Positions 134 to 42,000 of a DNA stretch of 42,000 bases are shown here, piece after piece. Numbering within the stretch: the stretch's first letter is position 1; each line of letters starts with the position of its first letter. The notes under the pieces were generated by a model. That model saw only the letters and a program-made list of their open reading frames with translations. It was not told the origin of the DNA and did not search any database. The stretch lies in the IMG/VR virus record IMGVR_UViG_3300028800_000170, positions 1 through 42,000 of that record. The stretch is one strand, 5' to 3'. This DNA comes from a virus. The position numbers were made by a program, and so were the translations under genes.

Positions 134-1618
134 TTCTACTTCCTCCCAGAAAATTACAATATGGCGAGGAACGACCTTATGGTCCTCTCATATGTCTGGT
201 ACAAGTGGAAGCGAAAAAAGAAACGCCTCTACTCTGCTAGGAAGAATGCATTTTATGACTTTGCCGGTGGAGAGGAAAACCTTGAGGCAATTCTCTACAA
301 CATCCCTGATCTGGAGGCTGTCGATGTGGAGGTTCCAACATGGAAACTTGCCACCGTCCTTAATGACCAGCTCATGTTCCAAGGTGATAACCCCCTAGGT
401 TTTGATGAGTGTCCTTTCGTGCCTTATTTTTGGAATTATGAGCCTCATATTAATTACTACGACTTAAGAGTTAGATCTTTGGTCCGCACCATGCGCGATC
501 CGCAATTTTTGTTCAATTACAAGGTAATCCAAAATAATGATATAGCTGCTGCAACTATTAATGCTGGCTGGAAGCGTAAAGTTGGTGCTGTTGCTAATGA
601 AGATAACCTAAAGAAGAGCGGACAGGGTTGGGACGTCATCATCAATGATGGCTATGAAATGGCTGACTGTGAGAAGATCATCCCCTCAGCGGTGCCAGAG
701 TCAGACCTCGCGTTGGCACAACAGATGGATGATCTGATCTGGAAGACCGCTGGGATTAACTTAGAAAATTGGTCCGGCCAAAACGATAAGCAGATCAGCT
801 CTCTAACTATGATGATGAAGCAGGCTGCTTCCCTCATGGTGTTCCAGAAGTATTTCGATCAATGGGACTACAGCGACAAACTCTTAGGAAATGTATGTTT
901 GAAGGTGCTCCTGAACAACTGGAATGCAGAAAAGGTCCAACTCTATTTAGGCAGGGAGCCATCCCCCTTCTTTTACTCGAAGGTATTCAGCAAATTTCAG
1001 ACGATTGTGGAAGAGAGCGACCTAACGCCTACACAACAGAACTTGCAGGCGCAGCAAATGCTGGACATGAATCAAATGTTTGGCAGAGAAGTGTTCCCGC
1101 CGAGCAAGATCATTCCTAAGCTCAACATCACCGGCAAAGCAGAGATCATCGAGATGCTCGAACAGCAAGAGCAACAGATGCAGATAATGCAGCAAGAACA
1201 GTCTAATATTGAACACGCTGTTCAAGATGCAGAGCTCAAAAACCTCTACAGTCAAGCTGCCTCTAACATCGCTACAGCGAGGGAAAGACATGGCAGGGCT
1301 CAGGCCGATATTGGGCTCTACGAAGAGCGTCTCAGTGAAATTACTCACAATAGGGCAATGGCTACAAAAGCGAAAATGGAAGCTCTTGAGAAGATGGTTG
1401 ATGTTACTGCTAAACTAGGAGCCATCGAAACTATGGTGAAGATGGGTGAGGTGGAGCAATTTAACGATAATCAATCTATTGCCGAAGATGCCGAAAAAGA
1501 AGATGCTAGAAAGACTAGCGAGTCCAATCAGTTCCTGATGGAGATATTAAAAGAGATCCCGGGTTTGAAACAACCCGAGCAACAAAATCCTACCCAAAAT
1601 GGTCAGGGGATGGTATAA
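2..1618 (+). CDS. Portal protein, main part (continues from 41498-41867)
   Basis: This is the C-terminal three quarters of a P22-type portal, the dodecameric ring at the packaging vertex that docks terminase and the neck. The frame is open from the first base because the gene begins near 41107 and runs through the circle closure; the ATG at 11 is internal. Visible features are the stretch SDAQFVWCQEYISKKEAENR, typical of the portal core, NPLGFDECPFVPYFW, and a glutamine-rich coiled coil near the C-terminus (EQQEQQMQIMQQEQ) like the barrel helices of these portals. If the two interruptions in the 5' part are removed, the protein is about 712 residues, close to P22 gp1 at 725. Scaffold and capsid genes follow on the same strand. 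The family call rests on recalled similarity and synteny, not a search. Confidence 0.85.
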   Translation, partial: SPDMSDAQFVWCQEYISKKEAENRFPDKINVIAPMAGTPQRYGSFYFLPENYNMARNDLMVLSYVWYKWKRKKKRLYSARKNAFYDFAGGEENLEAILYNIPDLEAVDVEVPTWKLATVLNDQLMFQGDNPLGFDECPFVPYFWNYEPHINYYDLRVRSLVRTMRDPQFLFNYKVIQNNDIAAATINAGWKRKVGAVANEDNLKKSGQGWDVIINDGYEMADCEKIIPSAVPESDLALAQQMDDLIWKTAGINLENWSGQNDKQISSLTMMMKQAASLMVFQKYFDQWDYSDKLLGNVCLKVLLNNWNAEKVQLYLGREPSPFFYSKVFSKFQTIVEESDLTPTQQNLQAQQMLDMNQMFGREVFPPSKIIPKLNITGKAEIIEMLEQQEQQMQIMQQEQSNIEHAVQDAELKNLYSQAASNIATARERHGRAQADIGLYEERLSEITHNRAMATKAKMEALEKMVDVTAKLGAIETMVKMGEVEQFNDNQSIAEDAEKEDARKTSESNQFLMEILKEIPGLKQPEQQNPTQNGQGMV

Positions 1619-40341: not shown

Positions 40342-40440
40342 TTAGTATTTGTGTTATAATATTCGTAAGCCTAGGGGGCACCCGAAAGGCGGTTTCCGAC
40401 CGCTTGGCTTGCTTTCATTCGGATCAACTACGGAGGTTGT
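40342..40440 (+). promoter_or_regulatory. Extended -10 promoter and structured leader of the HNH gene
   Basis: TGTTATAAT at 40352-40360 is a perfect extended -10 box. The transcript leader can fold as a three-way junction: AAGCC 40367-40371 with GGCTT 40406-40410, enclosing GGG/CCC (40374-40383) and GCGG/CCGC (40389-40403). A last hairpin CAAC/GTTG (40425-40439) holds the ribosome site GGAGG in its loop. The endonuclease thus has its own promoter and possibly controlled translation. Confidence 0.55.
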
Positions 40441-41028
40441 ATGTCAAAAAAATGCATTTCCTGCGATGAGATTTTAAGCATCAAAGCTAAAAAAGATGCC
40501 TGCAAAGCTTGTCGAAAAAAAGAAACAGCCAAAAAGTACATTCAAAATCATAAAGAAAAATTTAATACTTACCAAAAAGAATACAGAGAAAAAAATAGAG
40601 AACTTTGTAATGAGAGAGTTAGAAAAAGCTATTGGAAAAATCCGCAAAAATATAACGAAAAGGGCAAGATCCATTATAGGGAAGTAAACGGAATTCCCTT
40701 AGATTCTCCGTTTAAAAAAAAGAAAAATGGTGAGGGCAATATAGATGCTCAGGGATACAAAACTATCACTAAAAAGGGGCATCCAAATCAAATGGATGCA
40801 AAGGGACGTATAAGAGAGCATATCTTTGTTATGTCTGAACACCTAGGTAGACCTCTTTTTAAGGGAGAAACGGTACATCATAAGAACGGTGTGCGAACTG
40901 ATAATCGAATAGAAAATCTTGAACTTTGGAATAGGGGACAACCACCCGGCCAAAGAGTTGAGGATAGAATCGCCTATTACATCGAATTCTTAAAGCAATA
41001 TGGTTATGAAGTAAATCGCTTGCCTTAA
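40441..41028 (+). CDS. HNH homing endonuclease
   Basis: A 195-residue protein. The N-terminus carries two zinc knuckles (CISCDEI, CKACRKK), then a basic coiled region, then an HNH_3-type domain: GYKTITKKGHPNQMDAKGRI, REHIFVMSEHLGRPLFKGET, VHHKNGVRTDNRIENLELWN. The catalytic H-H...N...N order is complete. Such enzymes nick or cut intron- or insert-free alleles of a neighbouring gene. It lies free-standing between terminase and portal, 80 bp before a portal gene that holds an intron and a coding gap. Confidence 0.9.
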   Translation: MSKKCISCDEILSIKAKKDACKACRKKETAKKYIQNHKEKFNTYQKEYREKNRELCNERVRKSYWKNPQKYNEKGKIHYREVNGIPLDSPFKKKKNGEGNIDAQGYKTITKKGHPNQMDAKGRIREHIFVMSEHLGRPLFKGETVHHKNGVRTDNRIENLELWNRGQPPGQRVEDRIAYYIEFLKQYGYEVNRLP

Positions 41029-41106
41029 AATATAACATGTTTTATTGAGAGAATAGACGTAAGCGACCCGTCATCGCGGTGAAAGTTTTAACGCGAGGAG
41101 GGCGAC
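41029..41106 (+). promoter_or_regulatory. Portal leader with hairpin and AGGAGG site
   Basis: The leader holds a hairpin CGCG (41075-41078) / CGCG (41092-41095) and the ribosome site AGGAGG at 41096-41101. In the portal frame, stop codons occur at 41080 and 41089, so translation must start after 41091. Confidence 0.5.
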
Positions 41107-41296
41107 ATTTCTTTTTATTATCCACCTTGGAACAATGCTCTGGAACCTAATCAGGGTAATGTAAGACAGTGGCTTGATAATCTTTATTCGAAATTTCAAC
41201 CGATCGAACAGTCTTTTTTTTAAAAGCGGGACTGTTAATAGAAAAGTGGAGTGCGCTGGAATCAGTCAAATATTGATACCCTTTTCTATGCAGGCT
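41107..41296 (+). CDS. Portal protein, 5' exon (interrupted by a 39-nt gap)
   Basis: The N-terminus of the portal reads SFYYPPWNNALEPNQGNVRQ, WLDNLYSKFQPIEQSF (41107-41217), then after a 39-nt gap WNQSNIDTLFYAG (41257-41296, ending in the first base of the next codon). Both parts are in the same frame as the rest of the gene. The usual portal pattern in this family joins ...PIEQSF directly to W-N-E-x-x-I-D-T-x-F-x-A-G. The only possible start is ATT at 41107, five bases after a perfect AGGAGG; no ATG, GTG or TTG is available. Removing gap and intron gives a continuous frame. Confidence 0.75.
41218..41256 (+). other. 39-nt in-frame gap with stop codons inside portal gene
   Basis: Thirteen triplets including TAA, TAA and TAG separate ...EQSF from WNQSN.... 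The frame is the same on both sides. The gap's left edge forms a hairpin: AACAGTC 41207-41213 with GACTGTT 41230-41236, a T8A4 run inside. CAGTC also occurs again at 41263-41267. A GGAG lies six bases before the resuming TGG codon. These are features of a ribosomal bypass (T4 gene 60 type), but matching take-off and landing codons are not obvious. Other explanations are RNA removal, assembly error or inactivation. Confidence 0.5.
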
Positions 41297-41497
41297 TGAG
41301 GTACGGGGCCTGTTTAAATCTCCTCTAATTGACTTGGACCTCCCTATGGGAAGACAAGGGGCAAGCGAAAGCAGCCTGAACGACTAAATGAGGAGACCTA
41401 GCAATAGGAAGCGATAGTCTGAACTCTATGGTAACATAGAGAGGGAGATCCGAAGAGGTCACCCCGCCACGAAAGTGGTCACAAAAGTAACAGACGG
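41297..41497 (+). ncRNA. Group I intron in portal gene
   Basis: Core elements in order: P1, exon GCAGGCT (41290-41296) with guide GGCCTGT (41307-41313) and U-G at the splice site; P3 CTCCTC 41320-41325 with GAGGAG 41390-41395; P4-P6 between, with GAAA loop; P7 GACTA 41382-41386 with TAGTC 41415-41419, in contexts AACGACTAAATG and GAAGCGATAGTC matching the conserved R and S elements; P8 CCTA-GCAA-TAGG 41397-41408; P9 CTCTATG-GTAA-CATAGAG 41424-41441. The terminal G is at 41497. Splicing joins GGC-T to CA-CAA and restores the portal frame (YAG-SQTFVN). It encodes no protein. Confidence 0.88.
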
Positions 41498-42000
41498 CAC
41501 AAACTTTCGTTAATAGATACTTCAACTTTTCGCCCACGACGTCGTACCAACAGTACTACTTCAATATTATACAACAGCCCGTAAACATGATCACGGGCTA
41601 TGAGCGCCAACACCGTAAAAACTTCACCTATGTTCCCACTGAAGGTGCCGACCCTCAAACCACCGACGACTACACCACCTTAATGACCCACGTCTGCAAT
41701 GCGGGTGACATTCATGAGCAGAAATCCAAAGCAAAAGAACTCGCCTGTGTCTCAGGCATGGTACTCCTACAGCCCTACCTAGATTATACTGGTGATGACC
41801 AGGCACAAGGGACGTTGCGCACAAAGGTCTGGGAATATAATGCCTTCCTAGTAGATCCTTACTTTAGGTCGCCTGACATGAGTGATGCTCAGTTTGTCTG
41901 GTGCCAAGAGTATATTTCTAAGAAGGAGGCTGAAAATAGATTTCCTGACAAAATCAATGTTATCGCGCCAATGGCGGGAACTCCACAACGCTATGGATCT
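41498..42000 (+). CDS. Portal protein, 3' exon (continues at position 1)
   Basis: The exon begins with the last two bases of a split codon and reads SQTFVNRYFNFSPTTSYQQY, YFNIIQQPVNMITGYERQHR, KNFTYVPTEGADPQTTDDYT and KVWEYNAFLVDPYFRSPDM. Helical NxI...VNMI-x-G-x-x-R-x-x-R followed by F-L-V-D-P-Y-F is the signature stretch of P22-type portals. An in-frame TAA at 41488 lies upstream within the intron, so this exon depends on splicing. It runs across the closure of the circle into 2-1618. Confidence 0.85.
41868..42000. repeat. Terminal redundancy, second copy
   Basis: Second copy of positions 1-133, differing only at 41994 (T for C). See the first copy for interpretation. Confidence 0.93.

Follow-up and report, generated by a model that had tools for sequence, protein, structure and literature searches.

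We found that the portal gene of an IMG/VR virus very likely yields a pre-mRNA with two introns and only one ribozyme, in which the catalytic core of a full-size group I intron would splice out a coreless 39-nt mini-intron lying upstream of it and then splice itself. The gene lies in record IMGVR_UViG_3300028800_000170, of which we analysed positions 1 to 42,000 as one 42,000-nt stretch (hereafter the window). The reading is backed by the positions of the two inserts, their pairings and covariation, the dependence of the mini-intron on a downstream core, and the exact restoration of the portal protein.

The interrupted gene encodes a P22-like portal protein (Pfam P22_portal PF16510, E 3e-29). 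The first 133 bases of the window repeat positions 41868-42000 with 99% identity as a direct terminal overlap, which suggests that the genome is circular or terminally redundant, and because the record is terminally redundant the portal gene runs on at the window start (Table 1). IMG/VR holds more than 200 relatives of this portal. In 54 non-redundant intact relatives the first 50 codons are unbroken, typically reading SFYYPPWNNALEPNQGNVRQWLDNLYSKFQPIEQSRWNQSNIDTLFYAGSQTF. These relatives therefore fix both ends of the 201-nt intron, and they show that 41215-41253 is also foreign to the portal. A strong Shine-Dalgarno sequence (41095-41102) stands ahead of the ATT at 41107-41109. Across the portal family, start codons are mostly non-AUG with a strong Shine-Dalgarno sequence (TTG 18, ATT 16, ATC 9, ACG 8, GTG 6, ATG 6).

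Table 1 Features of the interrupted portal gene and its upstream neighbourhood, in window positions.
Feature	Position	Strand	Evidence
int-alpA-like RNA (RF02996), upstream of HNH gene	40364..40425	+	29 bits, E 0.0023, below gathering
Free-standing HNH endonuclease gene, 195 aa, HNH_3, directly upstream of portal	40441..41028	+	Pfam PF13392 E 3e-9; PHROG 20891
Portal exon 1, MSFYYPPWNNALEPNQGNVRQWLDNLYSKFQPIEQS	41107..41214	+	Alignment with relatives; apparent start ATT
P1' hairpin, 41207-41214 with 41229-41236, U41214•G41229 at 5' junction	41207..41236	+	Pairing, MFE
Coreless mini-intron, 39 nt, in-frame stops, last base G41253	41215..41253	+	Absent in 54 intact relatives; same-site counterparts; scan score
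P10', 41225-41228 (AGCG) with exon 2 start 41254-41257 (CGCU)	41225..41257	+	Pairing
H2' (P2-like helix), 41238-41246 with exon 41281-41289	41238..41289	+	Pairing, MFE, covariation at codon third positions
Portal exon 2, RWNQSNIDTLFYAG, 43 nt	41254..41296	+	Relatives' sequences
Full-size group I intron, 201 nt, P1 + P3-P9, terminal G41497, no ORF	41297..41497	+	Structure, covariation, nhmmer
Portal exon 3	41498..42000, then window 134-1618	+	PF16510 match; terminal overlap

A sequence-only reading of this DNA had proposed a 201-nt group I intron without an internal gene in the portal. The intact relatives bear out its ends, since U41296 joined to C41498 gives ...YAGSQTFVNRYF, which is present unbroken in the 54, and the segment contains no ORF. 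The pairings that had been claimed all exist, namely P1 (41291-41296 with 41307-41312, CAGGCU with GGCCUG, the pair U41296•G41307 lying at the 5' splice site), P3 (41319-41325 with 41390-41396), P7 (41382-41386 with 41415-41419), P8 (41397-41400 with 41405-41408) and P9 (41424-41430 with 41435-41441), and P4, P5 and P6 are likewise present. The P10 of this intron is weak (1 bp). When nine related introns were aligned, P1-P9 were paired in 91.4% of cells and 57 cells were changed on both sides; in controls with the partners slid by one to three columns, pairing was 36-47% and double-sided changes numbered at most 11. Within the core, which includes the P3/P7 pseudoknot, P3 was 98% paired and P4, P6, P7 and P8 were 100% paired, with double changes at 21 pairs.

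The suggested check against the group I model with Infernal and Rfam came out without a match although the structure is sound: no group I match (RF00028) was obtained for the window at gathering or at E ≤ 5, nor for introns from six relatives at E ≤ 1. The missing match is a limit of the curated model. Since Rfam was silent, the intron call rested on a local profile, covariation and intact homologues. The nhmmer local profile, which was built with this intron included, matched it at E 4e-46, and P1 was located by script in 158 of the 187 related core matches listed. The P7-P8 stretch gave weak matches to phages such as Lak, AR9 and Staphylococcus phages. By its structure, 41297-41497 is a real, ordinary small group I ribozyme, for which GTP-dependent self-splicing is predicted.

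Two further statements of the sequence-only reading fared less well. Introns in portals of this type had been thought rare, but intron-split portals recur in IMG/VR at several sites. Splicing had been said to restore the frame exactly, which is true of the downstream junction but not of the whole gene, where the second insert at 41215-41253 holds in-frame stops; the 201-nt intron alone therefore cannot account for a working portal. Both this interruption and the adjoining HNH gene, which tracks with inserts, had been overlooked. A related intron splits a P22-like coat gene in the podovirus isolate ctn9Y15 (L220, MW202674.1, 1685-3200), where the record is annotated with two coat CDSs and a hypothetical protein.

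The second insert lies 43 nt upstream of the 201-nt intron, starts after a U, and has same-site counterparts in L028, L064, L200, L209 and L211. It shows a P1 with U•G, a P10 and a terminal G, as a group I intron does. In P1', the exon end AACAGUCU pairs with GGACUGUU inside the insert, which puts a U•G pair right on the junction, where group I introns have it in P1; the P1' pairing includes a change of UA to GU/GC in L209/L211. The AGCG of P10' is formed by the four bases directly before G41229. The third helix, H2', joins AUAGAAAAG in the 3' half of the mini-intron to CUUUUCUAU in the exon, abutting the P1 of the full intron. An unguided MFE fold of 41200-41500 drew P1', H2', P1 and P3 together (z -3.4). 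The insert has no catalytic core P3-P9 of its own, for which 39 nt leaves no room. From these elements, it looks like a group I-like intron in function that is incomplete as a group I intron.

About 22 coreless mini-introns of 28-55 nt were found in uncultured phages, in genes that include those for portal and coat proteins. Seven cases had been seen by eye, at EQS^R (the window, L028, L058/L064), PP^W (L015, L042, L031) and QP^I (L031), and the scoring rule was framed after them. A script then looked upstream of each full intron for a P1' with U•G, a P10', a terminal G and a helix to the exon beside P1. It was run on 117, later 185, full introns among the matches listed, with 3700 dinucleotide shuffles as controls. 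Fifteen of the 185 listed full introns scored at least 21.5, against none of the 3700 shuffles (maximum 20.3); the window mini-intron scored 22.8. Matches independent of the rule-framing cases include L157, L118, L112, L208, L129, L209, L200 and L211. New portal cases are L118, L200, L209 and L211. Coat genes carry mini-introns in L129 and, by a relaxed scan, in L094 and L306, while that of L112 lies at the C-terminus of a capsid-like protein and that of L208 in a second capsid-like gene; further cases are L157 and L247 (33 nt).

Across 18 mini-introns, P1' formed 124 of 126 pairs, P10' 69 of 72 and H2' 154 of 162, with U•G at every junction, and exchanging partners among the 18 left 73, 32 and 77 pairs, respectively; the arms were chosen for pairing, and the real controls for these counts are the shuffles and the portal junctions fixed by intact proteins. 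H2' carries one mismatch each in L209 and L306 and needs a 1-nt bulge in L028 and L308. At ten loci, U^...G^ removal at both the mini and the full site gave the conserved portal protein exactly. Because the mini-intron lengths fall in all three reading phases, a tolerated in-frame peptide is ruled out, and an in-frame stop is found in 20 of 21 mini-introns (expected 14.4). A second core pattern listed 70 further full introns, mostly from other lineages, and none had a mini-intron above the threshold, so the system is confined to part of the family. In a genome collection with five core matches, only L215 drew a candidate, whose score of 20.0 lies inside the shuffle range. A high-scoring mini-intron in L167 was not counted, as it is weak and its 117-nt exon still holds stops. 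Several structural genes have multiple full and mini-introns in series (L129, L145, L131, L208, L309, L031), and the portal genes of L031 and L309 have two of each.

Co-occurrence indicates that the mini-introns depend on a core downstream. We searched IMG/VR without regard to the core, using exon-only patterns with a 25-55-nt gap. Type A inserts at EQS^RW turned up in eight contigs, all with a full core downstream, and a full core followed the insert in 3/3 cases at QP^IEQ and 3/3 at PP^W. The distance from mini-intron to full intron was 36-55 nt at these three portal sites. L231 carries a full intron at DNL^YSK while its PP^W site is uninterrupted. A full intron can thus stand at the same site with no mini-intron, and the dependence is one-way.

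Ribosomal bypass is known from T4 gene 60, where a short hairpin insert lies in a coding gene beside the HNH-type homing gene mobA. The small size of the 39-nt insert, its hairpin, its in-frame stops and the adjoining HNH gene all recall that pair, which would fit a programmed bypass of the insert with splicing of the 201-nt intron only. We rejected this explanation on codon grounds and consider it very improbable. The window's take-off and landing codons, TCT and GTG, are unmatched, and at PP^W, where the codon of the invariant Trp is split as T^GG and GGG AAT AAY follows in the DNA downstream, a hop would give Gly whereas U^...G^ splicing gives Trp. Nor does bypass predict the U•G, P10', the terminal G or the dependence on a downstream core.

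A separate class of insert, type B, occurs at portal EQSR^W with a length of 47-53 nt (L018, L032, L055, L068, L071, L203, L212, L307). It forms a long near-perfect hairpin with a conserved stem (GGTCTARCGCC...GGCGYTAGACC), an A-rich tail and in-frame stops, and often has an HNH gene upstream. Type B inserts were first taken for mini-introns, but they have neither the U•G nor a downstream core and represent a different phenomenon. They resemble bypass of the T4 gene 60 type, with take-off CGG and landing CGN in 6/7; the landing codon of L068 is mismatched.

Mini-intron and exon covary at EQS^R, where five distinct mini-introns were 98.8% paired and double-sided changes numbered 12; slid controls reached 37-51% pairing and no more than one such change. 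One H2' pair reads A-U, C-G, U•G, U-A and G-C in the five phages in turn. Where pairs vary, the exon partner is mostly a synonymous codon third position, which indicates that the mini-intron follows the synonymous drift of the exon, and the PP^W and coat sites add further compensatory changes. RNAalifold on an unanchored MAFFT alignment, in which variable loops misalign H2', did not recover this helix, and the counts were made again after the helix arms had been anchored by hand.

H2' acting as P2 would also let the U41214 site join the distal G41497, so that mini-intron, exon 2 and full intron left as a single 283-nt intron. Such exon skipping has a precedent in phage group I introns (Landthaler and Shub 1999, cited in PMC11878797). 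We nevertheless think it highly improbable here. Exon 2 is 43 nt long, so that the frame would be lost without it; RWNQSNIDTLFYAG is conserved among relatives with mainly synonymous changes, and a single large intron would give no reason for the mini-intron to have a P10' and a terminal G.

Just as hard to credit is excision of the insert in trans, by another ribozyme copy or by host factors instead of by the downstream intron in cis, although group I trans excision does work in engineered systems (PMC4094466). Against it, the core-blind scans placed a core 36-55 nt downstream of every such insert. H2' also always targets the exon beside the core, even when the core is at another site: in L308 the H2' of the QP^I mini-intron is directed to the exon before an AGS^Q intron, whereas in L118, L309 and L310 the partner exon precedes an ID^T intron. 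That the portal is a pseudogene in decay or was created by misassembly, as two interruptions and an ATT start might hint, is scarcely believable, given that the remaining 538 codons are open, that the same architecture with compensatory changes appears in independent metagenomes, and that ATT, ATC and ACG starts are used by intact relatives too.

In splicing by the downstream core in cis, the elements would be arranged 5' to 3' as P1', H2', a loop holding the 3' end of the mini-intron and exon 2, the second H2' strand, P1 of the full intron and, last, the core. If H2' is taken as P2, the order would be the canonical P1'-P2(H2')-P3...P9, the full P1 standing as an extra hairpin before P3, so the downstream core could accept P1' as its own P1. 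We infer the chemistry and the order of reactions as follows. An exogenous G would attack at U41214, and G41253, positioned by P10', would then occupy the guanosine site. Exon 1 would be ligated to exon 2 and the mini-intron would depart with one strand of H2', after which the full intron's own P1 could dock and normal splicing would give EQS-RWNQSNIDTLFYAG-SQTF. Were the full intron to be spliced out before the mini-intron, its core would go with it; this would account for H2' keeping P1' close to that core. The in-frame stops, by halting ribosomes ahead of the ribozyme, may protect its folding.

Of 20 portals with inserts, 15 have an HNH gene at this place, against 1 of 54 portals that lack inserts, a comparison that ignores kinship and counts type B hairpins among the 20. 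The HNH protein is probably the homing endonuclease of the insert cluster, and we infer that this neighbouring enzyme would mobilise the inserts. The int-alpA RNA scores above gathering in relatives (L015:3983-4047, L028:4339-4408), upstream of the HNH gene or of the portal, and is possibly unrelated to the insert system. Upstream of the portal in L042, the large terminase apparently contains an intein (CIVGDTLVKTG...NFVANGIVISNC).

Group I introns are regarded as self-contained, each with its own ribozyme. Our results make it likely that one natural group I core serves more than one intron and that non-autonomous mini-introns of 28-55 nt have spread through the structural genes of uncultured phages. 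Gene callers will split these genes wherever an insert is so short that it is not taken for an intron. A word-based search of open-access papers yielded no description of a natural coreless group I intron that borrows the core of another. A natural analogue lies in Euglena chloroplasts, whose group III introns of about 100 nt are thought to be derived from group II introns, with catalytic parts lost and the core supplied from elsewhere; those act in trans, whereas the mini-introns here would be group I and act in cis. T4 gene 60 shares with our system a hairpin insert and a homing gene, but its mechanism is translational, needs matched codons, and involves no P1, P10, terminal G or ribozyme. 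For the origin of the spliceosome, a path has been proposed from self-splicing introns to a division between catalyst and substrate. If our reading is true, short introns that shed their ribozyme and use that of a neighbour would be the group I counterpart of this division of labour, offering a small, concrete and testable natural model of it.

Phage group I introns such as those of T4 td/nrdB/nrdD, Twort and Bastillevirinae (PMC11878797) share with the portal system a P1 with U•G, a P3-P9 core, a terminal G, seamless exon joining and nearby homing endonucleases. Each of them has its own core, whereas the second, coreless intron here would rely on that of its neighbour, and the endonuclease is encoded ahead of the portal, not within the intron. 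As far as we found, such a division of labour among group I introns has so far only been engineered. In spliceozymes and trans-excision-splicing ribozymes (PMC4094466, PMC6155759), a group I ribozyme likewise removes a separate short intron via P1/P10-type pairings and joins the exons. Those systems are man-made, act in trans and have the P1 guide in the ribozyme, whereas the portal system would be natural and act in cis, its guide being located in the mini-intron, which a P2-like helix would tie to the core.
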